Of a DNA stretch of 64,000 nucleotides, positions 19,312 through 51,756 are shown piece after piece. This DNA comes from Adenophora triphylla var. japonica. Lineage: Eukaryota > Streptophyta > Magnoliopsida > Asterales > Campanulaceae. Within the stretch, counting starts at the first letter, position 1; each line of letters opens with the position of its first letter. The position numbers were made by a program, and so were the translations under genes. The notes under the pieces are model-generated. The model searched no databases and was not told where the DNA came from. It worked only from the letters and a program-made list of their open reading frames with translations. The stretch covers positions 512,501 to 576,500 of the forward strand of contig JAFEMH010000748.1 in the NCBI GenBank assembly GCA_022495995.1, given 5' to 3'.

Positions 19312-19347
19312 CTACGTATCCCTGGCGGGAATCAAGCCTGGTCGTAG
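19312..19347 (-). other. CTACG/CGTAG covarying hairpin, element D, before 3' LTR (copy 1)
   Basis: On the minus strand the outer stem is CTACG...CGTAG and the inner stem TTCCC...GGGAT, followed by GGAATCC. It belongs to the seven-site set described in the findings. Confidence 0.7.
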
Positions 19348-19488
19348 TTCAGAGTGTGGGGTGAGTGTTTTGTGAATGCGGGCGTGGTGGTGCCCTGAAG
19401 TGTCGTGTGACAGCCGAGGTCGCTGTAAGGACGTGGTGGTGTCCTGGGTGACCGCATAGGTCGATGGCTGGACCCTGTGATAGGATTC

Positions 19489-19524
19489 CTACGTATCCCT
19501 GGCGGGAATCAAGCCTGGTCGTAG
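19489..19524 (-). other. CTACG/CGTAG covarying hairpin, element D, before 3' LTR (copy 2)
   Basis: This copy matches the one at 19312-19347, carried by the surrounding direct repeat. Outer stem and inner TCCC/GGGA stem are intact. Confidence 0.7.
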
Positions 19525-19799
19525 TTCAGAGGTCGTGAAATCGTGAGTGCGGGCGTGATGGTGCCCTGAAGTGTTGTGTGACCGCCGAGGTCAGTGGTAA
19601 GGACGTGGTGGTGTCCTGAAATGTGGTGACCGCTGAGGTCAATTGTGAGGACGTGGTGGTGTCCTGGGATGGAAATTTTACGATTTTCCTAATCGGGTGG
19701 TTTAAGGCCTTCCGGGCCGGAGATAGTGATTTGGGAGGTTTATACGGTCTTCCGGACCGAGTGGTTTAAAGCCTTCTGGGCTAGGGATAGCGTGAGGAC

Positions 19800-20135
19800 T
19801 TGAATCGTCTTCTGATTGCGGTTGCGCCATGTTTGAAGACTTTGAATCGTCTTCTGGCTGAGGTTTGATGTCATGCGTGAGGACTTGAATCGTCTTCTAG
19901 CCGCAGTTGATGTTATGCGCGAGGACTTTGAATCGTCTTCTAGCCGCAGTTGATGTTATGCGCGAGGACTTTGAATCGTCTTCTAGCCGCAGTTGATGTT
20001 ATGCGCGAGGACTTTGAATCGTCTTCTAGCCGCAGCTTGATGTTATGCGCGAGACTTTGAATCGTCTTCTAGCCGCAGTTGATGTTATGCGCGAGGACTT
20101 TGAATCGTCTTCTAGCCGCAGTTGTGGAGGCATGG
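19800..20135. repeat. 42-43 bp tandem array in D 3' UTR, about 7-8 units
   Basis: Units contain GAGGACTTTGAATCGTCTTC followed by TAGCCGCAGTTGATGTTATG. Units from 19920 on are nearly identical, so the array has expanded recently; earlier units are diverged. Confidence 0.88.
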
Positions 20136-20159
20136 CTGCCTTGTGCTTTGATTGCGAGA

Positions 20160-20825
20160 GGCGTAGATGCCTTTGTGTTTTTGCATGTTGAGTAGAAGGT
20201 TGGACTTACGATGACTGCCGGTGCTTGCGTTGCCGTTGAAGTGGGCAAGGATGACGGCCGGTGATTGCTTCACCATTTGGCGTTTTGGAGGCGCTTCGTG
20301 CCTTAGGACTTGTACTCGGAGGTGTTGGCTCCTTCTTGTGCTTGTTTTGCCGTTGAGTGGGCGAAGATGATGGTCGGTGTCTTTGGGATATGCAGCCTTG
20401 TATGACTTCCCTTCGACTTGTTGGGAGGAGCTCGGGCTTACTTTGATGGCCGGTGCTTGCGTTGCCGTTGAAGCTGGCTAGGTTCGGGCTTACACCGACC
20501 GCCGGTGCTTGAATTGCCGGGGATGCATGACCTTGTAGGGGCCCTTTTCTGTTGGGAAGATGACTTCGGACCTCTTTTGAGGGCCAGTGGTTGAGTTGTC
20601 GTTGAGTGTTTTGGAGGCGTCTTGTGCCTTGATATTCGTGCTGAGAGGTGTTGGCTCCTTCTTGAATTGCCGTTGAGTGGGCGTTTTGGAGGCATCTCGT
20701 GCCTTGATATTCGTACTGGGAGGTGTTGGCTCCTTCTTGAATTGCCGTCGGGCGTTTTGGAGGCGTCTCGTGCCTTGATATTCGTACTGGGAGGTGTTGG
20801 CTCCTTCCTGAGTCGCCGTTGAGTG
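20160..20825. repeat. Irregular longer-unit repeats in D 3' UTR
   Basis: Words such as GAGGTGTTGGCTCCTTC, TTGCCGTTGAGTGGGCG and CTTGATATTCGTACTGGGAG recur at spacings of roughly 70-110 bp, with partial and mixed units. No open frame of protein character is present. Confidence 0.7.
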
Positions 20826-21080
20826 GGCGAGGACCGGTCTTACGTTGACGGCCGGGGATTGAATTGCCGTTGAAGTGGGCGAAGACCGGTCTTACGTTGA
20901 CGGCCGGGGATTGAATTGCCGTTGAAGTGGGCGAGGACCGGTCTTACGCTGACGGCCGGGGATTGAATTGCCGTTGAAGTGGGCGAAGACCGGTCTTACG
21001 TTGACAGCCGGGGATTGAATTGCCGTTGAAGTGGGCGAAGACCGGTCTTACGTTAACGGCCGGGGATTGAATTGCCGAGG
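20826..21080. repeat. 52-54 bp tandem array in D 3' UTR, about 5 units
   Basis: Units read GACCGGTCTTACGTTGACGG, then CCGGGGATTGAATTGCCGTT, then GAAGTGGGCGA. The units differ by only single bases. Confidence 0.88.
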
Positions 21081-21185
21081 CTCCCCCACTTCTTCTTCCT
21101 CAGTTCGTGAACCAGGCGAGAGAGAGAGAGGAAAAAACCTCCATTTTTACCAAAATCCTCCATTTTTTCGCTTGAATCGCTTGCA

Positions 21186-21352
21186 ATGGCGGAAGGATCT
21201 CGAAGGAGTCGTCGTCAACGCAGTCAAGAGGTGGTCGAGCAACGGATGGAGCTCCAAAGAAATTGGATTTCGTTCGTTCCATCTTCGAAGAACCCGGATG
21301 TCTTGTATCCGAATCCGGAGGTGCACAATCGTCGTTCTAGGAACGTCGGGAG
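21186..21352 (+). CDS. Possible first exon of an antisense gene in element D
   Basis: An ATG at 21186 opens a basic peptide (MAEGSRRSRRQRSQEVVEQR and about 36 more residues) that runs to a good splice donor, GGGAG|GTAAGAAA, at 21352/21353. The 90 bp upstream are purine- and T-rich like a plant 5' leader. Strand and position, antisense between the 3' LTR and pol, match the antisense genes of B, C and F. I see no later exon; the following kilobase is decayed T-rich repeat. It may be a remnant or a coincidence. Confidence 0.35.
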
Positions 21353-21639
21353 GTAAGAAATCCGCTCCGCTTTGATTCCCTCGTCGAATTTTTGAATGCT
21401 AGAACTAGGTTTTAGTTTTTCGCATTTTTGAATTTTTGTTATTATTTTTTTTTATGCCTTTTGCGAAATTCTTGATGAATTGTTGAAAATGGACATGTAA
21501 AAATTGTGGGTATGTGTATTTTGTGCAGAAATGTGTAGATTAGCTTTTATTTGTGAAAATAAAGTGCCTCTCTATGAAATGCATGCTTTGGTGTTTTGTA
21601 CCGTATGCTATTTATGAATGTACATTATGAGAAAAGTTT

Positions 21640-22262
21640 GTCGTGTAGTGACAATTTTTGTGAAAAAATGTGACATGTGCCGTGTTTTGTGATAGGTTTT
21701 GTCTGAAAGTGTGTACCGTGTAGGGACGGATTTTTTTTTTTTTTTTTGAAAAATGTGTTATGTATATGTGTCGTGCCGTGTGTGCCATGTTTTTGGGTGA
21801 CGGACTTTGTGGGGAAAATATGTGCAATATGTGCCGTGTTTTTGTGACGGGTTATATGTGCCTTTGCCGTATTGGGACGGACTTTTTTGAAAATGAGTCG
21901 TGTAGGGCTTAATCCCTCTTTTGAGAAAATGTGTACAATGTGTGCCGTGTTTTTGTGACGGACTGCATGGGAAAAATTATATGTATGTGAAAATTATGTG
22001 CAATGTGTGCCGTGTTTTGTGACGGGATATATGTGAAAAATATGTGCAATGTGTGCCGTGTTTTGTGACGGGTTATATGTGAAAAATATGTGCAATGTGT
22101 GCCGTGTTTTGTGACGGGTTATATGTGAAAAATATGTGCAATATGTGCAATGTGAGCCCTTGCTCGAGCTCTCTTTTTTTTATTTTTATTTTTTTTGTGA
22201 GCCCTTGCTCGAGCTCTTTTTTTTTTGTGAGCCCTTGCTCGAGCTTTTTTTTTTTTTTGAAG
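21640..22262. repeat. 44-bp array and poly(T) units in D 3' UTR
   Basis: From about 21950 to 22150 a unit with GTGCCGTGTTTTGTGACGGG and TATATGTGAAAAATATGTGC repeats 4-5 times, with diverged units from 21640. It is followed by three units of GTGAGCCCTTGCTCGAGCT each trailed by a T run. Confidence 0.8.
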
Positions 22263-22485
22263 CGCGTGAGGGCGAAGACAAGCCCCTGGCTTGGAAGCAG
22301 ACATGAGTCAGTCGTTTGATGCTGAGTGACCCTCGGATGTCCTTTGATGTTGCCGCCGTCGTTTGACTTGGTCAAGGTGACTGCCGGGCGTGTTTCTTGA
22401 AAAGTGCGTAGCTTGATGGAGGTCTTGATTGACATTCAAACTTTTGACTTTTTGTGTATTTTTAGACCGGACCAATTAAGGTTGC

Positions 22486-22522
22486 CTACGTTCCCCTGAC
22501 TAGAGGGCTCAGTCTCGCGTAG
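22486..22522 (-). other. CTACG/CGTAG covarying hairpin, element D, after pol
   Basis: Read on the minus strand: GAACTACG, GACTGAGCCCT, loop, AGGGGAACGTAGGCAACC. The outer stem CTACG/CGTAG encloses an inner CCCT/AGGG stem. It lies just beyond the end of the integrase remnant, as in C and F. Confidence 0.7.
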
Positions 22523-22566
22523 TTCGACACTACATGGAGTGCCAAGAGCTGCACAGTTGTTCTTCT

Positions 22567-23880
22567 TTAGGCGAAGTATCTGCGAAGTTTCCTTCCGTTG
22601 ACCGGATTTATGAAGGGATTGCCGTCTAGGTCTGCCGCCTTCATGGCGCCTCCGGAGAAGATCTTTTGTACCACGAAAGGGCCGATCCATGTGGGTTCCC
22701 ATTTTCCCAAAGTGGGTTGGTTCGAGTGGGAGGCTTTTCTTGAGTACAAGGTCGCCTTCCCCGATGTCTCGGGGTTTGACTTTCTTGTCGAAAGCTCTAG
22801 CCATCCCGCTTTGATAGGCTCGGACGTGTTCCATGGCCTTTAGTCGTTGCTCGTCTAGCAGAGCCAATTCGTCGTGTCGGCTTCGGAGCCATTCAACTTC
22901 GTTGATGTCATTTTCCAAAGAAGACTCGGAGCGAGGGAATTTCTAGCTCGACGGGAAGGACTCGCTTCCATCCCGTATGTCGTGGCAAATGGGGTTTCTC
23001 CCGTGGCCGTTTCGACCGATGTGCGGTAGCCCCAAAGTGCAAGGTGCAGCTTCTCGGGCCAATCTCGTCCTCGGGTGGTCATTTTTCGGATGATCCGTTC
23101 GAGGGTTTTGTTTGCCGCTTCCACGGCGCCGTTTGTTTGTGGCCTGTAGGGAGAAGATTTGTGGCGTGTGATCTTGAATTCAGCCGCCAGCCTCTGTCGA
23201 ATTCCCCTTCGAAGTGTGAACCATTGTCCGATATGACCTCATTTGGGATGCCGTATCGGCAGATGATGTTTTCCTTGAGGAAATGCGCGACCTTCTTGGA
23301 GGTGAGTACCTTGTAGGACTTGGCTTCGACCCATTTGGTGAAGTAGTCGATGGCTACTAAGATGAACTCGCGACCGTTGCCGCCCGGCGAAGCGATTTTC
23401 CCGATGACGTCAATTCCCAAGTGGCAAAGGGCCAAGGTGTAGTCATGCAAGAGAGATCGTGGGGCGGCAGATGATTGAGGTTGGAGAACCGCTGGCACTT
23501 GTCGCAGCCTTTCGGACAAAGTGGATGCAATCCGCCTCCATGGAGATCCAGAGTAGCCCATCCCGAGAATGATTTGCATCGTGGCTCTAGCGTTCATGTG
23601 GGGACCGCAAGCCCCATTGTGGACTTCGTTCATGAACTTGTTTGCTTCTTCTTGGCTGATGCAGCGTAGGAGTGGCCCATGGTAGCGTTTCTTGTATAGC
23701 ATGTCCTCAAGGATGACGAAGTGAGAGGCGAGGCGTTTTAGGGCCATGATGCTCTTGGTTTTGACCCCTCCTGTGTGTGGGTCTTCCTTGTTCATGAAGG
23801 TGGTTTCCCCGCTCTTGAGGTATTGGAAAATCTGGTTTGGCCGGAAATGGCGTCGGACTTGCGTCTCTTTGGCTCTTCAA
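22567..23880 (-). pseudogene. Element D integrase, fused by deletion to pre-RT segment
   Basis: Minus-strand pieces 23795-23079, 23124-22855 and 22918-22436 carry the zinc-finger end (EVHNGACGPHMNARATM), core residues in LGIDVIGKI, ISDNGSHFEG and the region before it, and the C-terminal RAFDKKVKPRDI. In C, about 2 kb of RT and RNase H separates the VNLG/ETQIG segment from NQIFQYLK. In D these two segments are joined at about 23840. Frameshifts break the rest. Confidence 0.85.
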
Positions 23881-28027: not shown

Positions 28028-28046
28028 GTCCCCAGCGGAGTCGCCA
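28028..28046 (-). other. Element D primer binding site (tRNA-Arg)
   Basis: On the minus strand TGGCGACTCCGCTGGGGAC follows the LTR end after a short spacer. It matches the complement of plant tRNA-Arg 3' end. This sets the minus orientation of D. Confidence 0.9.
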
Positions 28047-28048
28047 AC

Positions 28049-29457: not shown

Positions 29458-29462
29458 AGAAG

Positions 29463-32400
29463 TACCTACAGAAGAGGCGTTCGCGACTAAGGAGCCGAAT
29501 GATTTGATTGACTTTTCCTCTGATAGCGAGGTGGTGGCTATGTTAGAATTCGAAAAGGAGCCAGATGTGGAGCTAAACAGGTTGGAGACTCGCGCAGAGA
29601 GACCGCATGCACTGGACTTCGTTCCGAGGACCGGTCACCGACAGGGAGACTATGATTGGAAAGCTTGGGCTCAAGCCTCGTCCTTGTCCCTCCGAGTCTA
29701 AATTTGTTCCTCGGGTCTTGGGTCGGTCTCCTGAATCTCTTGTTATTGAATTCGAGTCTTCTGATCGGTCCGATGTCCTCACGACAGAAAACCGTCTTCG
29801 AGTTGTAAACACTGTTTTTCCCTATGCTTTGAATAAAATGGTTGACCTTTCTGAGTATCCCGTGATTGCAAATCTAACAATTGAACGCTTAACAAAAAAT
29901 AATCATCAAGATTTAAAAATAATTAAGCCTAATTCAATTGAAGATGATGCAGACTTAATAGATGAGCAAATTTTAGAAAATGATTCAAAGCAGGTTTGCG
30001 ACAAAAAGGAAAGCCGGGCCCAAGCTGCCGACGAGGTATTGACAACGGTGAACCTGGGAACAGCCGAAGAATCCAAAGAAACGCAGATCGGTAGCTTCTT
30101 CTCCGGAGATGAACGGGTTGCCCTGATTGAATTGCTTAAAGAATATATGGACGTCTTTGCTTGGTCCTACAAAGATATGCCTGGGCTGGATACTTCTATC
30201 GTAGAGCACCGGATTCCTCTAGATCCAGAAATTAAGCCGATCAAGCAGAAGTTGAGGCAAATAAAACCTGAGTGGTCCTTGCAGGTGAAAGAAGAAATTG
30301 AAAAACTCCTACGGGTAGGCTTCATCAAAGTAATTGAATATCCGACTTGGTTGGCAAACATTGTAACAGTCACGAAAGCAAACGGAAAAGTTCGGGTCTG
30401 CGTAGATTTCCGAGATCTCAATAAGGCTAGTCCCAAAGATGACTTCCCTTTGCCCAAAATTGACATGCTAGTGGATGCAACCGCAAACTTCGAGGTCAAG
30501 TCCTTCGTTGATGGTTTCGCGGGTTACAATCAGATCAAAATGGCTGAGGAAGATCAGGACAAGACAAATAAGCGTTTACAACTCCATGGGGTACTTATTG
30601 TTACACAGTAATGCCGTTTGGACTGAAGAATGCTAGGGCTACCTATCAGAGAGCCGTCACTACCCTGTTTCACGACATGATCCACAAGGAGATTGAAGTG
30701 TATGTAGATGATATGATTATTTACTCGAAAGGGTCAGATGGACAGCATTTCATTGATTTCAGGAAATTCTTCAACAGACTCCGAGAGCACTCCATAAGAC
30801 TAAATCCGGCCAAGTGCACCTTTGGGGTTATTCGAGGTAAAGTCCTAGGGTATATGGTCACAGAGCGCGGCATCGAAGTAGATCCCAGAAAGGTTAAGGC
30901 AATCATCGAGATGAAGCCGCCCAGAACTGTCTCCGAGGTGAAAGGATTCATGGGTCGATTACAGTACATCAGCAAATTTGTCAACCAACTGACCTCCATG
31001 TGTGAGCCTATCTTCAAGCTACTAAAGAAGAACCAGGAAGTGGTTTGGAACGAGGAATGCCAACTGGCCTTTGAGAGGATCAAAGCTTACCTTGTCAATC
31101 CTCCCATTCTCTGTCCGCCTCACGGAAGCAAGCCTTTACTGCTATATTTGACGGTCACAGACACAGCTACTGGGGCTATGCTAGCACAAGAGAAGAAGGA
31201 TTCAAAGATTGAGAATGCCATATACTTTGTTAGCCGCAAATTCCAAGGTAGTGAGTTAAATTACTCTGCCCTCGAGAAGACATGCGCAGCACTGGTCTGG
31301 GTGGTCGGAAAGCTAAAGCAATATATGCTATCCCACACTGTACACTTGGTCTCCAAGATGGACCCAATCAGATATCTGTTCCAAGGTGACAGAGGTAACA
31401 TCTCTACCAGATTGGCAAAGTGGACTTTCTTCTTGGCTGAGTTTGATATCAAATATGTGATCCGGAAATCAATCAAAGGGCAGGCTTTGGCGGATCAGTT
31501 GGCTGACTTCCCCAGTACAGAAGCCCGAGGACCAGATCTCCAATTTCCAGACGAGGGGATTCTTACTATAGAAAACGGCAACCGGTGGCAGTTATTCTTT
31601 GATGGAGCAGCAAACAAAAGAGGTAATGGCATCGGGATGGTACTAGTAGATCTGAACGACATGCATACCCCCATAGCTATCAAGTTGAACTACTCGGTTA
31701 CTAACAATGCCGCCGAGTACGAAGCTTGCATAGCTGGCCTAGAGGCTGCCCTCGAGCGACATGTGGAAGAGTTAGAAGTGTTCGGTGATTCCCAATTGAT
31801 AATCAATCAGGCCGCCAACAAATGGAAAATTATAGATCCATGTCTCCAGAAGTACCATGCTTACATTGAAGAGATCGTCGGTCAATTCAAGGAAGTGTCA
31901 TTCCAGTTCCTGCCACGAGACAAGAATAGATTTGCCGATGCCCTAGCTACTCTGGACTCTTTGGTAGAAATCCCAGAAGGAAAGTCGATCAAACCGTTCA
32001 GGGTCGGTAGGCGAGAAAATCCTGCATATTGTTGTGACATTGAGATCGAAACCGTCAGTGAGCCGTGGTACAACCAGATCTTTCAATATCTCAAGCATGG
32101 CGAAGCATCCTTCCCTGTTGACAAAGAAGGAGACTTAAAAGGTGTTCATGCCAAAAGCTTGCAAGCTTTAAAGAGACTATCAGCACAGTACGTCATACTT
32201 GGCAATGAATTATGGAAGAAAAGGGAAGGTTGCCCACTCCTACTTTGTATCAGCAAGGAAAAGGCCCAAAGAGTAATAGAAGATGTTCATAACGGTGCCT
32301 GCGGACCTCATATGAACGCTCGATCACTCATGCATAGCATCATCAGACTGGGTTACTTCTGGATTACTATGGAGACGGACTGCATCCAGTTCGTGCAGAC

Positions 32401-33337
32401 TTGTGATAAATGCCAGCGATTCTCCAACCTGAACCACATCCCTCCTCATGACCTTTATTGTATGACAACTCCGTGGCCCTTCGCAACATGGGGAATTGAT
32501 GTCATTGGAAAAATAACTCCGCCCGGGAGCAATGGACATTCGTTTGTATTGGTTGCAGTAGATTACTTCATAAAGTGGGTAGAAGCTGGGTCTTACAAAG
32601 TGCTCACAGCCAAGAAGGTCGCTCGCTTCATAAAGGAAAAGATCTTCTGCCGCTACGGAGTCCCAAATGAAGTTATTTCTGACAATGGAACCCATTTCGA
32701 AGGAGAAACTGATCGATTACTCACTGAATACAGGGTCAAGCGCCATAAATCCTCACCATACAGACCGCAGACGAACGGTGCTGTTGAAGCTGCCAATAAG
32801 AACTTGGAAAGAATCATAAAGAAAATGGCCGAACGAGGGCGAGACTGGCCAGAGAAGCTGCATTTAGCATTATGGGGCTACCGCACTTCAATTCGGACTG
32901 CCACCGGTGCAACTCCATACGCTCTGACTTACGGAATGGAGGCTGTTATGCCCATTGAATTAGAGATTCCATCCCTCAGGGTTCTGCTCGAGAATGAGGT
33001 GAATGAGATTGAATGGCTCCAAAGTCGATACAATGAATTGGCTCTGTTAGACGAACGCAGACTAAAAGCCATGGAGCATAACCGGGCGTACCAGAGAAGA
33101 ATGGCCCGTGCCTTTGACAAGAAAGTAAAACCCAGGGACATCAAGGTTGGCGATCTGGTTCTTAAGATGAAGCCTTCAAATCAGAACAGTGCGTTGGGAA
33201 AATGGGCACCTGTTTGGGTCGGACCATTTCTAGTGAAGAAAATATTCTCCGGAGGAGCTATGCAACTGACAGATTTGGATGGCAACCCATTTCTGCACCC
33301 CGTCAACGGCGACAAGTTGCGGAGGTATTATGTATGA
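29463..33337 (+). pseudogene. Element C RT, two RNase H domains and integrase (nearly complete, frame broken once in RT)
   Basis: The polymerase begins in the frame 29607-30611 with VCVDFRDLNKASPKDD and SFVDGFAGYNQIK. A short insertion near 30568 shifts the frame just before MPFGLKNA, so RT is split. The second piece, 30611-33337 (908 residues), holds the catalytic YVDD at 30701-30712, the gypsy RNase H, the archaeal-type RNase H (FFDGAANKRG, NNAAEYEA, GDSQLI, ADALATL) typical of Tat elements, and integrase. Integrase shows the zinc-finger CDKCQRF, core WGIDVIG, SDNGTHFEG and NGAVEAANK, and a C-terminal GPY-like end (WVGPFLVKKIF). It is the best preserved pol of the C/D/F group. Confidence 0.93.
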
Positions 33338-33938
33338 TCGAGTCTTTTCCCCTCTATAAAAAAATAAAGAAAAAAAATAATAATAATAAAAATAAAGGCG
33401 CAACAAAATTGTCCCAGATGAGACTGAAAACCTCTCAAAAGGCAGTCCATGTAAAAATAAGGGACGTGCCCGGTGCTAAAGAATATACCCAGCTAGACCG
33501 AAAACCCTAAAAAGGGCGGTCTAGGTAAAAAATAGGGTTGCACCATGTCCCCCCTTCTATCTTCCCCTTTCTTAAACACAAAAGTCGATAGAGTCGAACT
33601 ACGGAGACCTGAGCCCCTTAGTTCTCTTACAAAAGGGGAACGTAGGCAACCACTTATGGTTCGGTCTAAAACTGCTGCAAAAATCTCTCCTCCTGCTAAA
33701 ATGTGTTTTGATTACAGTTCCAAAGCTTTTCAAAAGGTTCATGTGGAGTTAATATTATTGTTGATGAGTTCAAGCACGGCCTACTTTTGACTCAAACAAC
33801 TTGCCATGAATAAAAGCAATAAATTTTCGACATCTATCAAGTCTGCATTAAGCAATCAAAGGGTACTCAATTTCCATACAAATAATTCCTACTCTCAAAA
33901 CACAAAATAAAAGAGTCCCCTGTCTCTCAGAAAAGTGT
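33338..33938 (+). other. Element C region between pol and antisense gene
   Basis: No gene. A poly(A)-rich run (33356-33396) is followed by repeated words AGACCGAAAACC and by the hairpin at 33599-33645. The sequence then leads to the 3' end of the antisense gene. Confidence 0.7.
33599..33645 (+). other. CTACG/CGTAG covarying hairpin, element C, after pol
   Basis: Outer stem CTACG (33599-33603) pairs with CGTAG (33641-33645); inner stem CCCCTT (33614-33619) pairs with AAGGGG (33633-33638). The context is GACCTGAG before and GCAACC plus GGTTCGGTCTAA after, shared with D and F. Confidence 0.75.
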
Positions 33939-35573
33939 CTAGAAATTCGTCCCCGCTCCCGAACTTGCTCCTCTGTCCTTCCTCTTCCTCGGTCCCCGGG
34001 AGGTCTTTGGCTTAGGAATGTCGAACAAATCGGTTTGAGCCCGTCCCAATTCAGGAATAACGCGCGCCGGCGGTTCAATCAGACCAGTCTCCCTCAAGGC
34101 GGCCCTAGCAATCCTCTCTTGTCTCAAGGCTTCTCTGCGAGCCATCACCTCCGGATCATCCCTTAAAGCAGCCCTCCGGATCTCTTGTCTTCGATAGTCC
34201 TCAGCAGCATCACCAGTAACATTGTCTGAGTTCCCCCGTGCCTCTGCATCCCTAAAAGACCTACTGGATGGATAATCTGCTCCCAAGAACTCTCGGCGGC
34301 GAGCCTCTATAGCCAGCTGTGCAAGACCCTGTTGCTCCTCATACCAAATCAGATACTCTGTAGTCAGAAATGTAAATCCCCTGGATTGCCGAAGGAGTGA
34401 ACGAGTGGGAAGAAAACCCTCCAGAAAGGATCTGCTGAAAAACTGCATAACCTGGGGCTCGGTCATAGACATCGGAACAGCATCGGTCACCAGTCTCTCC
34501 CTCAAAGCTCGGACAATCTGCTGAGGGTACCTATACTGCCTGCTCACCAGCGATGGAATACAGAAAGAAGATATATGCAGGCCTGGCAATCTGACTACTA
34601 CTGACCCATCCTGAATGTCTCTCATGGTCTGTAAATTCCAGGCAGGAATCCAAAAGCTCAGATCAGTAGTCCCGTACCGTGACAATCTCATCTCGCCACC
34701 GTCGCCAGCCTCGTCCTCGACTCTCGCGTTGCCCCATCACCCAAGGCATAGCAATTTGACCCGCCGGAAGTGGCATGATCAAGCGTAACCTCTCGTAAAA
34801 CCACAAAGACAACAAACCTGGGCCGCCCGCTCCCACGAAGTCTCGATCCCCGCCACTGTTGATGCCATGGTAAGTCTCACCAAAGAATAAAGTGGTACAA
34901 TGTCCATCTCCCTCGCCGATTTTATTTGACGAAGATCTACACCCCGGTCACCCCTCGCTGCTCGACGCCTCCAGAACGCACTTGAGCAGACTCCGGCATA
35001 TCCACAGAAATAGTAATCCGACAGGGTGAACATCATGTATATATCCAAAGAGGTAGAAAGGTTAAACAACTCAGGACTGGACAAGCATAACCTAGCCATC
35101 CGAGTCAAGTCTATGGACCCACAGCCCAGAATCATAAATAACACCTGATTCGCTGGCAGACACAAGAAGTCCGATAATTGCTCCACAACCGGCCGGCCAT
35201 CCCTTGGGAATGCTACAGTTGCCGCCTCGCCCAAGCATGTCAATGCCCTAAAGTCTTCCATGGTGGGAGTCAAATCATTGTACGACAGAGTAAAGACATG
35301 ACGCTCTGAGTCCCAGAAGCAGGATGCAGCCCGAAGCAAATCCCAGTCGACCCTCCAGTCTTTTAAAGAACAGAGACACGGCATATTATACCTCCTGTCA
35401 ATAAGCTCCCTGTGATGCCTCCGGTGATAATGTGAAATTTCGAGAAAGTCTTGGCGAAATTGATGCTCCCGAGAAGCTATTTCCCTGTTATAATGCTCCA
35501 TCGCAGCTAAAAGTATCAGTCTTGGCCAAAGAATTCGCTTATCTGACAAGTCAGGGCAGCTGGTTTCCTTCAC
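33939..35573 (-). pseudogene. Antisense extra gene of element C (DUF7745/PMD-like)
   Basis: On the minus strand, a first open piece (35573-34779) probably starts at the ATG at 35501 (MEHYNREIASREHQ). It contains DWDLLRAASCFWDSERHVFT followed by DLTPTMEDFRALTCLGE, the signature of the plant retroelement-associated DUF7745/PMD-like group. After two frameshifts near 34780 and 34700 the product continues in 34691-33939, ending in an Arg/Glu-rich tail and KTSRGPRKRKDRGASSG. A TATA-like TTTAAAAT (minus) is at 35610-35617, and two palindromic words of the same kind as in the C LTR lie above it at 35643-35652 and 35678-35687. Function is unknown. Confidence 0.7.
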
Positions 35574-35642
35574 TGAATAGGCAGTGTTTACAAAATGAAG
35601 CCTGGGCCGATTTTAAAGAGAGCCTGTTACGAGTCACTCCTA

Positions 35643-38340: not shown

Positions 38341-38636
38341 CATAATGAGGCTGACAAAAAAGGAAAAGATGACCACCTATCTTCAACATGTCAAAATGTT
38401 AGCAAAACAGTACCTCAAGTTGTATCCCATGTAAGTTGTCATTTTTTCATAAAAGCAAACTCCGAAAATAGGTATGATTTAAATTTTGTCAAGTCATTTA
38501 TTTATGTTTGTCAATTCTTATGTTATGCTAAAAATTCTTACTGACTTAAGCATCGGAAGGGTAAAGCTAACACCCAATCCTAACATGAATTTGTTTTGCA
38601 AGGTATACAACTTGAACAAACGGAGTAGGCTCAACA

Positions 38637-38955: not shown

Positions 38956-38960
38956 TGTTT

Positions 38961-39540: not shown

Positions 39541-39862
39541 TGTTGGGGACGGATTTTTCACTATATATATATGGTTGGCATCTTAAGCAGGTCAACATGT
39601 CAAGACGCCTCAGCATCCTGATCTCCACAACTTGACCTCTACAACTTGATCTCCACAACTTGGTCCACAACTTGGTCCACAACTTGGTCCAAAAGTTGAC
39701 TTTTTACAAGTTGACTTTTTACAAGTTGACTTTACAAGTTGAGTTCACATCTTGGACCAACATCTTGGCTCAACGTCTTCATCAACATCTTGAAGTCGGA
39801 CCAACTTGGGAGCAGTTTTGCGGTTCCTATTTTTTAGGAGATACTTGTGCACTCATAGAAGA
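39541..39862 (+). repeat. Element E 3' LTR, truncated
   Basis: The first 322 bp match the E 5' LTR almost base for base to ATAGAAGA, then the sequence switches abruptly to element F pol. Confidence 0.88.
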
Positions 39863-44003: not shown

Positions 44004-44238
44004 CTTGGCCCCCTAAGAATAAATCGCTCGCTAGGTTGAAAATCCCGGAAAGGACAACCTAGGCAAAAATTAGAGCTAGCACAAGAAAAGAAGCCCGCTG
44101 GATCGAAAACCCGAAGGGGCGGTCTAGGCAAAAGAAAGGGTGTGCATAAAAAAAAAAGAAAAAAGGGGGGTAGGCCTTATCTCGCGCGAGATTACTCTAC
44201 GGCCTAGAACCATATTTTGTCCTTTTCTCAAAAATGAA

Positions 44239-44288
44239 CTACGTTGGACCTGAGCCTCTTGTTTAATTGCTGTAAAAGAGGAACGTAG
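44239..44288 (+). other. CTACG/CGTAG covarying hairpin, element F, after pol
   Basis: Outer stem CTACG (44239-44243) with CGTAG (44284-44288); inner stem CCTCTT (44255-44260) with AAGAGG (44276-44281). Compared with element C (CCCCTT/AAGGGG) one inner base pair has changed on both sides, C-G to T-A. Confidence 0.8.
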
Positions 44289-44487
44289 GCAGCCTTCGGG
44301 TTCGGTCTAATCAAATAAATAAATCAAAGTTGTCCCTTTTATTAATCGAATGCATTTCATTAATGATAATAGGGAAATCCTAACCACAACGACTAATTTG
44401 CTAAGCTAACAAACTTAAAAAAAAAAAAATACTAATAAAGCAGAAACAATTGATCTATCAAAGCAATCTCTTGGTACTCCTAAAGAT

Positions 44488-45981
44488 CTAGCCTTTCATT
44501 GACTTGGTTGGCCGGCAGACATGGTCTCCACCGTCGTCGTGATCCTCCTTGCGCTTTGAGCCTCTCAAAGCAGAACATCCCTCGAGACGATCAAAGACAG
44601 ATTCCGACAATCTCGTGAAGACATGAGGCCTATCCAAAGCTTGCGTCTTTCCAGGCATTCCCTTGCCTCGCCTCTCGTACCAATCCCCATCAAGAAAATC
44701 CTGAGTAGGATCAGTTCGCACATTAGCGTGATCGACCGAGCCTCACTCCTTCGCAAGATACCGCTAGCTACAAAAGAATCTCTTAGCAAATGAAAGCCGC
44801 AAGTCATCAATCTTCTCTCGCACTAGGATGACCGGTATGGAGGAACCAATCCAAATATTTGTCGGACAGAAGATGCTTGCATTAAAAGTCCGAAGGTTCG
44901 ACCAAAGGTCCCGATTAGTTCCTACACCCCATGCTTGAGCTAGCACTGCGCAAACTCTACACCAATATAAGACACTACACGAGAAGCTCCTTCGAAAAGA
45001 TAAGTGTCCCGTCGCGACGAAACCGACTGAGCACACCGCGCTGGGAAAGTAGAAGGAGGAATCTCGCAAACCCTAAGAACAACCCCGTCAAAACCCTTGG
45101 TATTGGCAACATACTTGTTCAACCTCCAATAAGGTGGACACCGGAGAATATCGACAGCTTTCGGTCTTCGCAATCAACTCGGCCCATTCATCCGCCGAAA
45201 GATCTTTGATCAACAAACTTTCGTGTATGATATGTAAAAGGAGAATATTCCAATGGGGGACCTATCAACTTGAGATGCTCCCTAAGCCAAATAGTCAACA
45301 GGAGGGGCACCCTTGAGTCATGACGCCGATCCCATGCAGCTCATCAAGACCATGAAGGGTCTCACCCAAGATTAGCGGAATAATGTTCCTAGAACGTTTC
45401 CTAGCCTCGCAACAACTTCCACCAGTTGGGAATCGACCAAGCCGTCCCTACACGTAAACAAAACATCTCCGAAAAGAGAAAGAGCCAGAAAGTTCCGCTT
45501 ATGGACATGAAAAGCATCATCATCAGAATCACCGCTGAAGCGTCCCGGGAAAGAGGAGCAATCAACCCACTTGCGGTGAACCAACCCATAGCAAGTATCA
45601 AGGGGGATCCCTAACAATTCGTTCAAAGCCTCCGAATGATTCCTATGATACTTAGGAACAAGAATCTCGCCATAAAGGCATATCCAAGATAATGGCGAAT
45701 TCCTCCACGGTAGGCACCATCTCATTCAAAGAAAAATTGAAAAGATGAATAGAGGGATCCCAAAATCGAGCAGCACCCTGCAATAACTTCCAATCCGGTT
45801 GGAGGTTCTTTAAAGTGAAAAGAATTCTAAATCCGAATTCTGCGATAAACTTATTGCGAGACCGGTTGCGAAACGACCTTACAAAATCCCTTGATGCTTG
45901 CTTGAAAGAGGCAATCACTTCAGAGGACAAAGAAAAATCATCGACAATCATGGACGTTGGGGCAATCTCCTTGGAAGCCAT
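44488..45981 (-). pseudogene. Antisense gene 1 of element F (DUF7745-like)
   Basis: From the ATG at 45981 (MASKEIAPTSMIVDDFSLSS) the minus strand encodes DWKLLQGAARFWDPSIHLFN followed by EMVPTVEEFAIILDMPL, homologous to the C antisense protein. After a frameshift near 45700 it continues with NELLGIPLDTCYGLVHRKWV and on to about 45372, then in further shifted pieces to 44488. A TATA box TATAAAAT (minus) is at 46081-46088, and a palindrome pair lies 55 bp above it (46143-46178). Its start is about 100 bp below the TATA, as expected for a short leader. Function is unknown. Confidence 0.65.
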
Positions 45982-46142
45982 GGATCACAGGGTTGAAAAA
46001 GAAGACAAGAGTTTCACCCTAACAGAATATCTCTAGAGTTTGAAAAGCTAGAATGAGTTATCTGGCCGGACTACAGGGTGATTTTATAGGGAAAACTGTC
46101 AAAATCCTGTTCGAAAAAGGAAGAGATTTACTGCTGGGTAGC

Positions 46143-46178
46143 GTGTCTCGTGCGGGACACCTTATCTCGCGCGAGATA
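46143..46178 (-). promoter_or_regulatory. Palindrome pair above antisense gene 1 of F
   Basis: GTGTCTCGTGCGGGACAC (46143-46160) is followed after two bases by TATCTCGCGCGAGATA (46163-46178), a perfect 16-bp palindrome. The same pair type stands above antisense gene 2 and in the F LTR. Confidence 0.75.
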
Positions 46179-46527
46179 TCCCTACGGCAAAACAAAGAAC
46201 AGCTTCTGCTCAAACAGCAATCTAGCCCCGACTTGACAAAGCAAGTCTCGAAAAACCTGCGTGTACAGTTCATAACATGCAATAAAACACCATACTCAGG
46301 CTCAAAATTGCGGCCTAACGGCCATTCCATTTCCGAAATCATGGAAAGTCGAGAAAGTTAATTAAACTAATTAGACCTAGGATTAGGGGCTAAGAAAAAA
46401 AAAACCATTGTTTGTGCTACCTACTTGTTCCTAACAGGTACCAGAAAAGAAAAAAAATTTGTCTGGGCCCACACGGCCAATATGTACAGATCATCAAATC
46501 ATCAAATAAAGAGAGAAAGGGAGGGGA

Positions 46528-48779
46528 TCACGCCATCAAGTCGCTCGAGCCGCCGGCACCTCCGCCATCACCTCCACGGGGGCTACCATCCCTCCTCGAC
46601 CTCTTGGCTCCGCAAGTAGGGGTCATAGCCGAGGCCACTGTCGAGGCCGCCGAAGAAGCTTTCTGGAACAGCCTCTCGGACAGATCCGACACCAAAGCCA
46701 TCAACCCAGCCATCTTGGTCGCTCCACGGTTGTAATCGGCCGCGGATATGGTGACCTAAAAATCAAAGAAAAGAAGATGCTCAGATGGAGTCGGACATAT
46801 ACACTTATATGGACGAATACGAGAAACAGTACAAACAGAAACATACCGAAGAGACATCAGCCGGGAGGCGGTAACCCTCGGGAATCTGATCAGGAGACGG
46901 GATATGCCCCATCATCGGCATGCTCCCCATCATATAAGTGTAGCTCAAAGGGCCGTAATCCGGGGCAAAAGACAGAGAACCGCAGCACGGGAGGAAGTGC
47001 TAGGGGCTGAAGAACCTGAAGCAGAAGCAGAGGCGGAGCCATGAGCATGTGATCGCCTATTCCCCACCAGGAGGGGACCCATCAACCGAGGCAGAAACTC
47101 CACATAAGAAGCCCCGGGGATCACGCAAGTCGTCGCCGCATCACCCGCCAAAAGACCTGCATAATCATCCTCTGGAATAGAGTGGGTGGGATACATCGCC
47201 CTCGGCGGATCCGCCGGCACCCTGTATGATAGTCTACCCCGGCCATGCTGTGGGAAGACCCGCTCACCAAGGTACATGGTGTCCCCCTCCAAAGACGCCA
47301 GCATCCTCTGCATCCCGGTAGCATCCCAAGCTCGATGCACCTCCAGCTCCAACAGGGTCCAAGGATATAGGCCCAGCCTCTCATACTCAAAGGTGTCCAA
47401 CATGGCCCGCGCCTCCGCCACCGTTAGAGTCCAATCCTGGTTCTCCTCCTCATCAACAGTCCGATTCGGGTGGCTCCACCTCCTGATAACTGGGAACAAC
47501 GGGGTCCGGCTCTCCAACTCAAACCTGTACAGCCCAAAGACAGTGTAGCCCCATATCTGCACAAGGAAACGGAATGATTCGCAGGGAACACATATAGAGC
47601 ATACGTACGTAAAATGTAAATGTAATCAAAGAGCATACCTCCCAGGCATAAGAATACCCCGACAGAGTATCCTTGGTGTGCCTACACGCCTCATCCATGG
47701 CATGGTAGCAGTAGGCTAGCCCCGCTGAGCCCTAATCATAGCCGCTCACTTCATCCAGATCAACCAACAAGCGTAACAAAGAAAGACGGGCCGTAGAAGA
47801 ATGGTTCGCAAAAATAGTCTCAGAAAGGATATACCAGAGGGCACCCCTCACCAACCGATCAATATTCACATTCGGCTTCTTCGAGTAGTCCTCAATCCGA
47901 CGGAGGGGTGTCAACTCAGCAAAGATACCCCTTAACCTTGTTAGGGGGAAACCAATCAATCGCTCCACGCCGCCGGGACTCGCAGCTTATAATTCGGAAA
48001 CTTCGGCGGGATCGCCAATGAACTCTAACCCCGTGATAGCAAGAAAATCGAGTCGGAGTCATAGTCGCTTCCCGAAGCGCAAGTGAACGGTGTGGGTAGT
48101 GTCCCACCACCTCTCCCGAATAGCCCGGAGAACTTGGGGAGTCCGCCTTATTCCCCGGAGATTGTCAATGAAAGTCAACAAACCCGTTTGGGCTACCCTA
48201 GCTCTGACGCCGTCAAGATCCTTGATCTTGTCCCACACCGCCTTAGCCATTTTCGGACTCCCCGACGCTTCTTAATTGGCTTGTACGATCGCAAAACAGA
48301 GGAAAAACGGAGAGGGCAACATTAGAAATCATTCCAAATCAAGAAACCAATGAAATAGAAGAAATTTTTCATTGGGGCATTTCATCGAACACTTGGCGTG
48401 CGTACAAGAAAAGCTTGCCCAAGGATGTCAATCATAATCCGAATCAACCTCTCCTACAATCCATGATGTGTAGGAGGCTCATACGCACACAATGCAACAA
48501 CAAGCATCCAAAGAAATGCATAAAATTAAAGCATGCAAGGGGAACCTAGCTCTAAGCACAAACATGAACAAAAGGCCATTGAGGGAGTTTTGAATTCAAA
48601 GGAAAGGGGATTCAAATCAAAGCAATACAAGAAACAAGAGGTGAAGATAGAGTTCTTACCAAGCCCTCCCGGACAGCGGTAGAGATGTGGGCGTGCCTAT
48701 CGAAGGTGAGATCATCGCGGGGATAGTCCTTCCCTAGCAAATAGCTCCCCAAAATCGGGTTCCTTTGTTCTTGAGCCAT
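46528..48779 (-). pseudogene. Antisense gene 2 of element F: plant mobile domain (PMD) gene, multi-exon
   Basis: On the minus strand exon 1 is 48779-48660 (MAQEQRNPILGSYLLGKDYP, 40 residues) with donor G|GTAAGAAC. A middle exon from about 48269 to 47639 holds LRAIRERWWDTTHTVHLRFG, TMTPTRFS and later NIDRLVRGALWYIL, the PMD signature around the family's typical helices. The next exon, 47556-46847, starts IWGYTVFGLYRFELE, and the last, 46755-46528, ends in a Gly/Ser-rich tail (GGDGGGAGGSSDLMA). The introns at 47638/47557 and 46846/46756 have clean GT and AG ends. Frameshifts near 48060, 47970 and 46950 break the copy. TATA-like CATATAAAC is near 48926-48934. Cellular PMD proteins (MAIN, MAIL1) act in transposon silencing; a role here is inference only. 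Confidence 0.75.
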
Positions 48780-48944
48780 CGATTATGGAGGGAGGAGGGA
48801 ATGAGAATGGATTAGGGGGAGAATCACCAATCAAATCCACGAGAAAATTGCAAAGAAAGCGATCTTGGCTTGAGCTAGGGAGGGAATTTTGGAAAAGACG
48901 TTTTCAAAATAAACAAGAGCTGCTGTTTATATGCCCCGACAGTA

Positions 48945-48982
48945 GATATCTCACGCGGTATATCATATCTCGCGGCGAGATA
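48945..48982 (-). promoter_or_regulatory. Palindrome pair above antisense gene 2 of F
   Basis: GATATCTCACGCGGTATATC (48945-48964, imperfect) and TATCTCGCGGCGAGATA (48966-48982, a palindrome with one extra central base) stand 13 bp above the TATA-like box of the PMD gene. Confidence 0.7.
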
Positions 48983-49194
48983 AACCTTCTGGAAAAGGAC
49001 AAAATTGTCCTCGACAATAAGCGTCTACGCAACGTCAAAGTTCAAAATTTTGACACATTTACCCTTGGAAATGATAAACTAGCAGGGAAACGTGGAAAAA
49101 CCGGCACCGCAAGTCACGGAACGAGCCAAACGTGACGCCCGCACAATCGCCCTGGCACGCACTGCCGCCCGAAACCGAGTGGTCCAAAAATCAA

Positions 49195-49745
49195 CTCAAT
49201 CCACATGATTCAGAGCCCAGAAAGGTGAATCATCAAAGAAAAAGCCCAGTCCAACGCCCAAACAGGTGGATCGTCATCAGAAAAAGCTCGGTCCAACGCC
49301 CAAACAGGTGGATCGTCAAACCAATAGTTCGGTCCAACGCCCAAACAGGTGGATCGTCAAACCAAAAGCTCGGTCCAACGCCCAAACAGGTGGATCGTCA
49401 AACCAAAAGTTCGGTCCAAAGCCCAAACAGGTGGATCGTCAAACCAAAAGCTCGGTCCAACGCCCAAACAGTGGATCGTCAAACCAAAAGCTCGGTCCAA
49501 CGCCCAAACAGTGGATCGTCAAACCAAAAGCTCGGCCCAACGCCCAAACAGTGGATCGTCAAACCAAAAGCCCTGGTCCAACGCCCAAACAGGTGGATCG
49601 TCATCGAAAGCCCGGTCCAACGCCTGCATGGTGGATCGTCGAACCAAAAGCCCGATTCAACGCCCAAACAGGTGAATCGTCATCCCCAACAACAAAAGCC
49701 CGATTCGGAGCCCGAAAGGCGAATCGTCACAAAACCGACAGGACT
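49195..49745 (+). repeat. 40-41 bp tandem array in F 3' UTR, about 12 units
   Basis: The unit reads AAACCAAAAGCTCGGTCCAA then CGCCCAAACAGGTGGATCGTC. Units are nearly identical from 49270 to 49600 and diverge at both ends. Some units have lost one G (CAGTGGATC). All three forward frames stay open over several hundred bases, which follows from the unit having no stop in any frame. Confidence 0.92.
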
Positions 49746-49957
49746 CGGAGGACCTGACAGGTAAGCCTTTGTGTTCTAACATGATTCCCGCAGTTCGGAG
49801 CCCGTGACAGCGAATCTTCGAGACAAAGGTGTATATTCCGAATTGGGTCTTGATTTGATTCCTCGCATGAATTTACCTTTTCGAAAATAAAATCTCTCGC
49901 GATTTTCAAATGATTTTCAAAATACCTAAAGCAGCCTTTTCGTGTTTTGGAGTCGAA

Positions 49958-49994
49958 CTACGTTTTGGTCCGATTCTCCGATAGAGATACGTAG
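49958..49994 (+). other. CTACG/CGTAG covarying hairpin, element F, before 3' LTR
   Basis: Outer stem CTACG (49958-49962) with CGTAG (49990-49994); inner stem TCTC (49975-49978) with GAGA (49984-49987). In C and D the inner stem at this place is TCCC/GGGA, a compensated change. GCAGCC follows, as in the post-pol copies. Confidence 0.78.
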
Positions 49995-50087
49995 GCAGCC
50001 GTGCGGCACGACCATCCCGATGTTCGAATGATGTTCTTTTCTATCGTCGACATGACTTCTTTCATAAGACTTGTCGCCGAGGGGCTC

Positions 50088-51092
50088 AGAGACACCCCAT
50101 TCGAACACATCTAACATACTTATACCACTCTAAGTCTCGCTTTGAGTCAAGAAGTAGAAATCCACCATTTCGTCATGTTTCGTTAAGTTTTGACTAACTA
50201 CCGTTAGTTTGGGACTAAACTGCATACGAGATAACGAGGAAAGGACAAAACTGTGCACAGGAGCAATAACTCGCCGCGAGATGGCGTGTCTCGCGCGAGA
50301 TATCCCCCTCTCGCAGATTGCACGACGCTTCCTCGTCGATTTCAACCTCTTTTCGAGATAAAACTTTATCTCTCCGGCCAACCAATGGGAGAGGAGTTCT
50401 AGAACCATCTGATAGGGTTTTAACTCTCCACTTCTTCATATCCAACCTCTATAAATACTTGGTGACTTCCAAGGGATAGGAGGTCGGAAGTCGAAAACCC
50501 CAAACCTCGAATTTACACAACACACACATTTTGTCGTTTTCTTTCCCTGAAGGAATCCCTCAAAATCACCCTAAAAACTCACCTCATAGTTTGTTTGTCA
50601 ACCTTGTTGATAAACAAGCATCAATCTCCAAACCAAGGACCAAGGCGAAGCTCTGTCCATGTGAAGGGTCGACTCTAAACTTGAGTCGAAACTCTGCCCA
50701 AATCACCTCACGCAAGGTAATTCCTAAACTTCCTTCTAATTGATTGTTAGAGTGGTATAAGTCCATAGAATCTAGGATCGGCCTAGAGCCTCTCCAAATC
50801 ATGGAGACGGTCTCGAAGTAATCGATTCTACATTCCGTTTGACCTCGTCAAATGGACCTTTATTTGTAGTATTTAGATTCGTTTTTTTACTTCTTCTTTT
50901 GAAAAACCTCTCTTTTCTTTAGCAAGACCGATCTCCGGATTGGGTGAAATGGATGCCTTCTAAACCTACCCATTTCGTAACCTAAGCCCCGAACTCAAAT
51001 CTCTTTCAAATGGTTTTTCTATGTTTCCAATCAAATAATATAGGTGGCGACTCATAAAAAATAAAAGGAATCAGAATTTCTTTCTCACAACG
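50088..51092 (+). repeat. Element F 3' LTR (borders inferred)
   Basis: The left border is set by the purine tract GCCGAGGGGCTC, equivalent to those before the LTRs of C and D. Unlike them, the next bases are AGAGACACC rather than TG. TATAAATA lies at 50450-50457, followed by a pyrimidine-rich leader. A GGTGGCGACTC word near 51044 is like the one inside the C LTR end. The right border, ACGCTACA|ATGAG, is a guess where the C tandem array resumes. Confidence 0.6.
50269..50300 (+). promoter_or_regulatory. Palindrome pair in F LTR U3
   Basis: ACTCGCCGCGAGATG (50269-50283) and TCTCGCGCGAGA (50289-50300, perfect) lie about 150 bp above the LTR TATA. A single further copy, ATCTCGCGCGAGAT, is at 44179-44192 after pol. 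Confidence 0.75.
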
Positions 51093-51645
51093 CTACAATG
51101 AGTCCCTCCGGCATCCACGAAAGACCCGTTGCAGTGTGAGACCCTCCGACAGCTACAACCCGTCAGCAACAGTAGCGTGAGACCCTCCGGCAGCTACCCG
51201 GCACCAATAAAGTGGTATGAGACCCTCCGACATCCACGAAAGACCCATTGCAGCGTGAGACCCTCCGGCAGCTACAACCCATCAGCAGCAGTAGCGTGAG
51301 ACCCTCCGGCAGCTACCCTACACCAACAAAGTGGTATGAGACCCTCCGGCATCCACGAAAGACCCGTTGCAGCGTGAGACCCTTCGGCAGCTATAACCCA
51401 TCAGCAGCAGTAGCGTGAGACCCTCTGGCAGCTACCATGCACCAACAAAGTGGTATGAGACCCTCCGGCATCCACAAAATACCAGTTGCAGCATGAGACC
51501 CTCCGGCAGCCACAACTCGTCAACAGCGATAGCATGAGACCCTCCGGCAGCTACTCGCAAATACCAGTTGCAGCATGAGACCCTCCGACAGCTACAACCT
51601 GGCACCAAAGGCAGTTACTAGCCAACCGCAGAACCCCTCAAGAAG
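51093..51645 (+). repeat. About 120-bp higher-order tandem array in element C 3' UTR
   Basis: Sub-units of about 40 bp share GAGACCCTCCGGCAGC or GAGACCCTCCGGCATC. They alternate in sets of three (CATCCACGAAAG, CAGCTACAACCC, CAGCTACCC) to make a unit near 120 bp, present about four to five times. The last sets are scrambled. Confidence 0.88.
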
Positions 51646-51717
51646 TCACAGGTAAGCACATCAAAGGTATGAAGACACATCTCTACCCCTTTCTTGCTTG
51701 TGGTTAGTAATTCCGAA

Positions 51718-51756
51718 CTACGATTTGGCTTGATTCCCTTCTTAAGGGATACGTAG
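51718..51756 (+). other. CTACG/CGTAG covarying hairpin, element C, before 3' LTR
   Basis: Outer stem CTACG (51718-51722) with CGTAG (51752-51756); inner stem TCCCTT (51735-51740) with AAGGGA (51744-51749). GAATCC follows, as in the element D copies at the same position in that element. The remaining 150 bp to the LTR hold a purine tract GCCAAGGGGCTC ending at 51900. Confidence 0.8.

Follow-up and report, generated by a model that had tools for sequence, protein, structure and literature searches.

In a 64,000-nucleotide stretch of the Adenophora triphylla var. japonica genome (contig JAFEMH010000748.1, positions 512,501 to 576,500; hereafter the window), three Tat/Ogre-type retrotransposons, referred to as C, D and F, carry a structured motif both after pol (pol-type copies) and before the 3' long terminal repeat (LTR-type copies). 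Comparison of 104 distinct copies shows that this motif is, as far as base-pairing patterns can tell, an RNA pseudoknot module of Ogre/Tat-type retrotransposons, lying on the sense strand. A first-pass annotation of the same DNA had described it as a hairpin with an outer CTACG/CGTAG stem and a varying inner stem. All seven sites named there are present where they had been placed, each on the sense strand of its own element, and the pattern CTACG-N{20,50}-CGTAG matches exactly these seven in the window (dinucleotide shuffles: mean 0.24, maximum 2, none of 100 reaching seven). The hairpin itself is real but forms only part of the structure, a further helix (P2) and a second hairpin (P4) having been missed; the complete pseudoknot is about 60-75 nt long and extends beyond the original hairpin coordinates.

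Fold of the module and its covariation

The bases separating CTACG from the inner stem are complementary to a segment lying 15-22 nt past CGTAG. The resulting helix, P2, crosses the outer stem, P1, and the whole is therefore a pseudoknot. Along the sense strand the parts follow in the order GAA, P1 (CUACG/CGUAG), a joint of 2-5 nt leading to the P2 core, the 5' strand of P2, UGA-N, the hairpin P3, N-A, the 3' strand of P1 (P1'), G-N-A, the hairpin P4, N-C and the 3' strand of P2 (P2'), where the C is usual, not invariant. P4 is a small hairpin between P1' and P2' with a CC/GG core and an AT, TA, GC or CG extension. The letters of the UGA joint were left free by the search pattern, and in the alignment described below (A1) they are T in 99, G in 102 and A in 103 of the 104 copies; C fills the column preceding P2' in 99 of them, the F rows being misplaced there. 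Locating P2' by P2 alone gives 76 uniquely placed copies, 71 of which have a C directly before P2'; 12 copies are ambiguous and 16 lack a perfect match. The search pattern itself prescribes GAA, the A preceding P1' and the GG that follows P1'.

Two other features were seen next to or within the module. LTR-type copies have an extra hairpin past P2' (GACC/GGTC, GATC/GATC and others; a window example lies at 51784-51812), and scoring of the LTR-type copies finds a perfect 4-bp stem in 45 of 61, compared with a shuffled mean of 5.8 and maximum of 11. In some pol-type families the 3' strand of P3 and the following joint make up a run of ten purines (AAAAGGGGAA), like a second polypurine tract.

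The 104 distinct sequences derive from 121 matches in the window, a foreign contig described below (L225), and 30 loci (L248-L277) and 60 stretches (L278-L337) of the first host-genome contig; some copies appear twice because loci overlap, and matches followed by fewer than 45 nt were dropped. In A1, which covers the whole structure including P1, 90.6% of 1935 pair cells hold standard pairs, compared with 83.1% after shuffling and 24-48% when the columns are slid by 1-3. Cells changed on both sides number 223 against 101.6 in shuffles, and the covariation score is 0.283 against 0.160; each of these three values was reached in 0 of 500 shuffles. In P2, pair 17/80 is UA in 51 copies and CG in 41, and pair 15/82 is GC in 57 and AU in 41; in P3, pair 22/49 is UA in 61 and CG in 40; in P4, pair 63/74 is UA in 39, AU in 24 and GC in 11.

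With P2' placed by P4 and the preceding C, all four core positions of P2 are paired in 80 of 98 copies (6 of the 104 could not be placed), whereas 2000 re-deals in the fixed register give a mean of 53.7 and a maximum of 61. Five perfectly Watson-Crick cores occur, namely GGCT/AGCC (40 copies), GACC/GGTC (31), GGTC/GACC (6), GGCC/GGCC (1) and ACTT/AAGT (1). A first test of P2, on seven sequences in free register, was a weak one: its result was reached by 1 of 1000 shuffles, and swapped partners paired equally well. When relatives are collapsed to 15 groups at 80% identity or five at 70%, the four core columns are paired in 10 to 14 of the 15 groups and in 3 to 5 of the five, MAFFT misplacing the F and L225 rows. 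Wobbles on the sense strand are G.U in 96 cases and A.C in 18, a count in which P2' was chosen partly by fit; because wobbles of the opposite strand would appear as A.C, the sense RNA is the strand that folds.

RNAalifold, run on the 104 rows, returned P1 and P3 only; the method cannot show P2, and P4 was missed. A 5-mer/8-mer scan for stem-forming sites did not make CTACG distinct from tandem repeats. The reading of the motif as a hairpin alone was rejected, since P2 and P4 also carry compensated changes. The earlier argument from compensated changes to RNA structure is upheld for the inner helices P2, P3 and P4 across the 104 copies and finds no support in the outer stem, which does not vary among the seven. 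Its inner-stem pairings are right for every site except the D pol-type copy, which pairs imperfectly (CCCT with GGGG and one G.U, or with AGGG and a bulge).

Several observations weigh against the structural case. In the larger set P1 is fixed by the search pattern. Among P1 variants in the host genome there are 3,796 with a single T.G, 2,935 with a single C.A and 472 with a compensated double change; about 106 doubles would be expected under independence with the 105,110 pattern matches reported below, and only about 57 of 100 listed doubles look motif-like by eye. An unpaired control double has 260 matches, and older copies carry more changes at any position, so that the P1 excess is ambiguous. 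Covariation of P1 is thus unproven, and this stem may be constrained in its sequence and not only in its pairing. Within A1, moreover, two counts do not rise above shuffles: pairs that show a both-side change at all (8; equalled or exceeded in 474 of 500 shuffles) and additional pair types (24; in all 500). The copies are also related to one another, their sources being a single contig of one genome, the window and one foreign contig.

From the 104 copies we built a covariance model of P1, P3 and P4 (R1), whose training set includes the window copies, L225 and most of the other positives. Two copies outside it (L254 and L274) score 66.6 and 65 bits. A scan of the window at E up to 1 returns the seven sites of the first-pass annotation, which had suggested such a model, and no others (48.8-74.8 bits); no copy was seen in the window's other elements, one of them an outer Ty3/gypsy element with a pol (54164-57169, minus strand) that shares about 35% identity with the C pol. 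Coordinates are collected in Table 1.

Table 1. Module copies and associated features of elements C, D and F in the window.
Feature	Position	Strand	Details
C pol-type copy	33596..33667	+	GAA; P1 33599-33603/33641-33645; R1 60.8 bits
C pol-type P2 and joint		+	P2 AGACC 33605-33609 / GGTCT 33663-33667; UGA 33610-33612
C pol-type inner helices		+	P3 CCCCTT/AAGGGG; P4 AACC/GGTT
F pol-type copy	44236..44308	+	P1 44239-44243/44284-44288; R1 54.1 bits
F pol-type other helices		+	P2 GGACC/GGTCT (one G.U); P3 CCTCTT/AAGAGG; P4 AGCC/GGTT (one G.U)
D pol-type copy	22464..22525	-	P1 22518-22522/22486-22490; R1 56.6 bits
D pol-type other helices		-	P2 AGAC(T)/(G)GTCT; P3 short; P4 ACC/GGT
C LTR-type copy	51715..51783	+	P1 51718-51722/51752-51756; R1 72.4 bits
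C LTR-type other helices		+	P2 TGGCT / AGCCA 51779-51783; P3 TCCCTT/AAGGGA; P4 CCTTT/AAAGG
F LTR-type copy	49955..50014	+	P1 49958-49962/49990-49994; R1 48.8 bits
F LTR-type other helices		+	P2 TGGTC / GACCA 50010-50014; P3 TCTC/GAGA; P4 GCC/GGC
D LTR-type copy 1	19288..19350	-	P1 19343-19347/19312-19316; R1 74.8 bits
D LTR-type copy 1 other helices		-	P2 AGGCT/AGCCT; P3 TCCC/GGGA; P4 CCT/AGG
D LTR-type copy 2 (tandem duplicate)	19466..19527	-	P1 19520-19524/19489-19493; P2 GGCT/AGCC; R1 66.6 bits
C primer binding site	12479..12496	+	directly after 5' LTR
C pol	30575..33334	+	part of reverse transcriptase (RT), RNase H, second RNase H, integrase (Pfam order RT, RNase H, RVT_3, integrase)
C antisense open reading frames (265, 277 aa)	33939..35612	-	two frames, between C pol-type and LTR-type copies
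F antisense open reading frames (110, 226 aa)	45652..47625	-	between the two F copies
C polypurine tract region (AAGGGGCT)	51892..51899	+	before 3' LTR
F polypurine tract region (GAGGGGCT)	50079..50086	+	before 3' LTR

Host elements, abundance and occurrence elsewhere

The three pol-type copies of the window stand about 45-262 nt past the end of pol, the largest distance being that in C. LTR-type copies lie about 145 nt from the 3' LTR in C, 85-95 nt in F and 150 and 327 nt in D; the start of the F LTR was placed via the tract at 50079, no LTR pair having been found for this element. In D the two LTR-type copies belong to a local tandem duplication (19251-19446 and 19432-19618, 86% alike, with a unit of about 180 bp) and so represent one event. 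The sequence TGGCGACTCC[AG]CTGGGGA follows the 5' LTRs of C and D and occurs also in L225; the primer binding site is a lineage-typical feature in the Ogre/Tat clade, and this one may be a tRNA-Arg site. A primer-site-like TGGCGACTC was also seen in the 3' part of the LTR (51045-51053 in the window; 3232-3240 in L225, whose real primer binding site lies further downstream, at 3515), and in L225 it follows a hairpin weakly resembling wcaG RNA (28.5 bits, gathering cut-off 42).

The pol of C has an RNase H domain at 158-290, RVT_3 at 342-459 and integrase at 560-731, and thus the additional RNase H between RNase H and integrase by which the survey of plant LTR elements characterizes the Ogre/Tat clade of Ty3/gypsy in its treatment of that clade (PMC6317226). 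The pol pieces of F and D align to it. Between the copies of C and F lie antisense open reading frames (ORFs). In C the second gives a weak DUF7745 match below the cut-off and the first has no Pfam match; in F the 110-aa ORF matches DUF7745 (E 2.1e-7, 30.7 bits, cut-off 26) and the 226-aa ORF matches the plant mobile domain weakly, below the cut-off (E 0.018). At E up to 5, none of the five antisense ORFs scanned in C and F matches Transposase_28 (PF04195), a hallmark of Retand. The survey gives an extra ORF with a plant mobile domain in 57% of Ogre elements and Transposase_28 in 23% of Retand elements (PMC6317226); the Retand study gives the antisense domain in 97% of clusters (PMC11963269). 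By the survey figures, the antisense domains fit Ogre more than Retand. The suggestion that the motif is doubled around antisense genes holds for C and F; in D the longest antisense ORF between copies has 118 aa.

Across the 2.48-Gb host assembly, GAACTACG-N{18,46}-ACGTAGG has 52,113 + 52,997 = 105,110 matches, and the same pattern read backwards has 126 + 111 = 237, about 440-fold fewer. Among 30 sampled loci, some of which share one element and are therefore not 30 independent elements, 12 are pol-type and 18 LTR-type, and 22 have pol or polypurine-tract context. These two results bear in part on the refuting condition set by the first-pass annotation, a motif equally common outside such elements and on either strand; as far as they go, they support the annotation. 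At 10 of the 12 pol-type loci the C-terminus of pol lies upstream on the same strand, its match ending 44-294 nt before the motif; none has pol on the opposite strand and two have no pol match. A GAGGGGC tract follows 12 of the 18 LTR-type loci at 83-217 nt. Of the six without one, three make up a single triple, in which no tract lies within 400 nt, and the rest are upstream members in three sets. Within 400 nt downstream of the 12 pol-type loci no [AG][AG]GGGGC was found. The listing of host-genome matches suggests that many elements have one pol-type and one to three LTR-type copies. At other places in the host genome, pairs or triples of copies lie about 100-600 bp apart.

L225, a contig of 4.2 kb, is recorded as Solirubrobacter sp. 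CPCC 204708 and has a motif copy scoring 36.8 bits under R1, in whose training set it lies. Its primer binding site is that of C, and 36 nt of it resemble the 3' part of the F LTR; it looks like plant retrotransposon DNA, evidently contaminating a bacterial assembly. Its copy keeps the design with a different 7-bp P2 (TGGACTT/AAGTCCA), and the module is therefore probably not confined to one plant. Related pol proteins occur in many angiosperms, as seen in the best 120 of 2,628 matches. L225 was the one true relative among the stretches listed for a broad pattern in genome contigs (at least 118). In viral contigs the broad pattern gave at least 120 stretches and no recognised true copy (all ranked by stem, 25 inspected, 50 of 120 scanned with R1), specific patterns gave 0 matches, a pol query gave one locus with a 22-residue match, and a pol alignment gave 0 relatives among 177 stretches. 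R1, run on 100 of 238 pattern stretches, scored at best 19.5 bits (E 4e-5, rough calibration), compared with at least 48.8 for window copies.

The statement that no named motif fits is borne out by Rfam 15: in the window and 16 loci, at E up to 5, no family reaches its gathering cut-off at the motif, and the sole overlaps are Dictyostelium_SRP at 14.8 and 13.3 bits (cut-off 90; L286 and L314). No description of the motif appeared among the papers listed by our literature searches, and neither of the terms 'hairpin' and 'secondary structure' occurs in the main text of the plant LTR element survey (PMC6317226) or in that of the Retand study (PMC11963269).

Elsewhere in the window, a long inverted repeat at 61682-61929, perhaps a small inverted-repeat transposon, matches MIR7533 at 106 bits (gathering cut-off 230), and nested palindromic repeats, 95-97% alike, surround ACTCGAGATGCATCTC at 62293-62799. 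On the minus strand at 6403-7896 lies a phospholipase A1-IIdelta-like ORF of 497 aa from stop to stop, whose relatives among the matches listed are mostly 63-71% identical over about 90%, the best named one being from Cornus florida (70%, about 90% coverage).

Possible roles in the life of the element RNA

How might a single fold at both ends of the region between pol and the 3' LTR serve these elements? By analogy with retroviruses, we tentatively suggest a cis-acting RNA-fate element that acts in export, stability or the shielding of unspliced RNA from nonsense-mediated decay, a reading that we consider quite possible though still short of probable. Several kb without sense genes follow the pol stop codon, a layout that would demand both an export signal and a shield against nonsense-mediated decay. 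Retroviral RNAs that are unspliced and have long 3' untranslated regions need help in both respects, as described in part of PMC9143442. In pol-type and LTR-type copies alike, a host protein or the element's own Gag would meet one and the same three-dimensional surface, and this would settle what becomes of the full-length unspliced RNA. Most likely, the module would serve to recruit a factor that keeps this RNA exported and stable. The module would then work like the src-flanking direct repeats of Rous sarcoma virus (RSV), without kinship. The relevant parts of the sources describe 115-nt direct repeats flanking src in RSV and one copy just upstream of the LTR in avian leukosis virus (ALV) (PMC3856414, PMC9143442), an RSV stability element after the gag stop (PMC9143442) and a pseudoknot within the MusD export element (PMC12786077).

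Three points tell against an RNA-fate element of this kind. The RSV parallel, itself an analogy, is one of layout and not of descent. In L225 the motif begins 685 nt before the start of the primer binding site and is probably inside an apparently transcribed LTR, hence in the 5' leader too, which would fit packaging as well. An AATAAA-like word, finally, occurs within up to 100 nt downstream of 20 of 43 pol-type copies and only 5 of 61 LTR-type copies, a pattern that fits 3'-end formation better.

A packaging or dimerisation signal, in which Gag binds the pseudoknots and selects full-length RNA, would account for the L225 position and for the same core at several places of one RNA, and packaging effects are among the roles reported for the RSV repeats in part of PMC3856414. 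We think it unlikely, given that the LTRs and 5' leaders of C and D have no copy (the 5' end of F is not delimited) and that a copy after pol would be unusual for such a signal. Somewhat less likely again is a 3'-end element that marks or assists termination and polyadenylation, in which case the pol-type copy would yield a short gag-pol RNA lacking the antisense region. The AATAAA-like words and the A-rich stretches downstream of pol-type copies speak for it, but more than half of these copies lack such a word, and the LTR-type copy precedes the polypurine tract, with an LTR and its own 3'-end signals still downstream. The compact crossing helices and 3' position might also suggest an exonuclease-resistant RNA that halts a 5'-to-3' exonuclease and preserves the RNA downstream; this we hold to be improbable, since no such Rfam family appears at the motif in the window and 16 loci at E up to 5, and the crossing strand lies in a joint and not in a hairpin loop as in plant-virus examples.

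A DNA-level feature (a recombination site, cruciform or transcription-factor site), or shared descent without selection, would explain a P1 that is self-complementary and invariant and genome copies that are repeats of common ancestry. It sits poorly with five different P2 cores, each complementary, with the sense-strand wobble bias, and with the self-matches of at least 100 bp between C, D and F, none of which covers a motif site, though pol matches end nearby; we regard it as very improbable. Lowest of all we place a self-cleaving ribozyme. The pair counts do give the double-pseudoknot order P1-P2-P3-P1'-P4-P2' of the hepatitis delta virus (HDV) type, with the C before P2' noted above, but P1 has only 5 bp, the joint before P3 is UGA-N and that before P2' has two letters, no Rfam ribozyme family matches at E up to 5 in the window and 16 loci, and a cut upstream of the 3' LTR would leave no intact genomic RNA. 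Of the roles first proposed for the motif, namely RNA processing, packaging, second-strand priming and transcript separation, the evidence singles out none, and second-strand priming looks the least likely: LTR-type copies are followed by the tract only after 83-217 nt, and no [AG][AG]GGGGC was found within 400 nt past the 12 pol-type loci; as a counterpoint, the P3 strand of some pol-type copies is purine-rich.

A bolder possibility, which we consider doubtful, is that the module represents an undescribed class of catalytic or protein-recruiting pseudoknots, present as a set of at least two in most angiosperm Ogre/Tat-type elements, with about 100,000 copies in one genome, and bracketing and controlling an antisense gene unit. 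The region between pol and the 3' LTR, with its antisense ORFs and tandem repeats, is described in the Retand study as being of unknown function (PMC11963269). A strict, tandem-tolerant RNA module at both of its borders gives a concrete handle on that region and a prediction about which RNA is made and kept, testable by a short reporter. It also provides a 60-75 nt marker for annotating such elements and many thousands of natural variants for studies of RNA folding.

Comparison with known structured RNAs

Like H-type pseudoknots with inserted hairpins, such as those of frameshift sites, the module has crossing P1 and P2 helices and a short first joint; it differs in having hairpins in both later joints. 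A role in frameshifting is unlikely, because the module stands about 45-262 nt past the pol stop in the window. HDV-like ribozymes, which cleave themselves 5' of P1, have a nested double-pseudoknot strand order. The module departs from them in its helix lengths and joints and in the lack of an Rfam match, and activity of that kind would harm the element.

The MTE of MusD, the RTE of intracisternal A particles (IAP) and the CTE of Mason-Pfizer monkey virus (MPMV) are export elements near the 3' end. They resemble the module as structured export signals of LTR elements or retroviruses, the MTE with a pseudoknot, as described in part of PMC12786077. They differ in using a vertebrate export receptor and in copy number and core.

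Export and stability elements of the RSV type raise the amount of unspliced RNA in the cytoplasm. In layout, the nearest parallel is offered by the direct repeats of RSV (DR1 and DR2) and of ALV, which the relevant parts of the sources describe as structured cis elements on the sense RNA, in RSV flanking an extra gene before the 3' LTR (PMC3856414, PMC9143442). The RSV repeats form a hairpin and not a pseudoknot, the hosts and elements are unrelated, and the gene between the copies is antisense in C and F; D has the copies with no antisense ORF above 118 aa between them. In C and F, as in RSV, the copies flank an extra gene between the last main gene and the 3' LTR.

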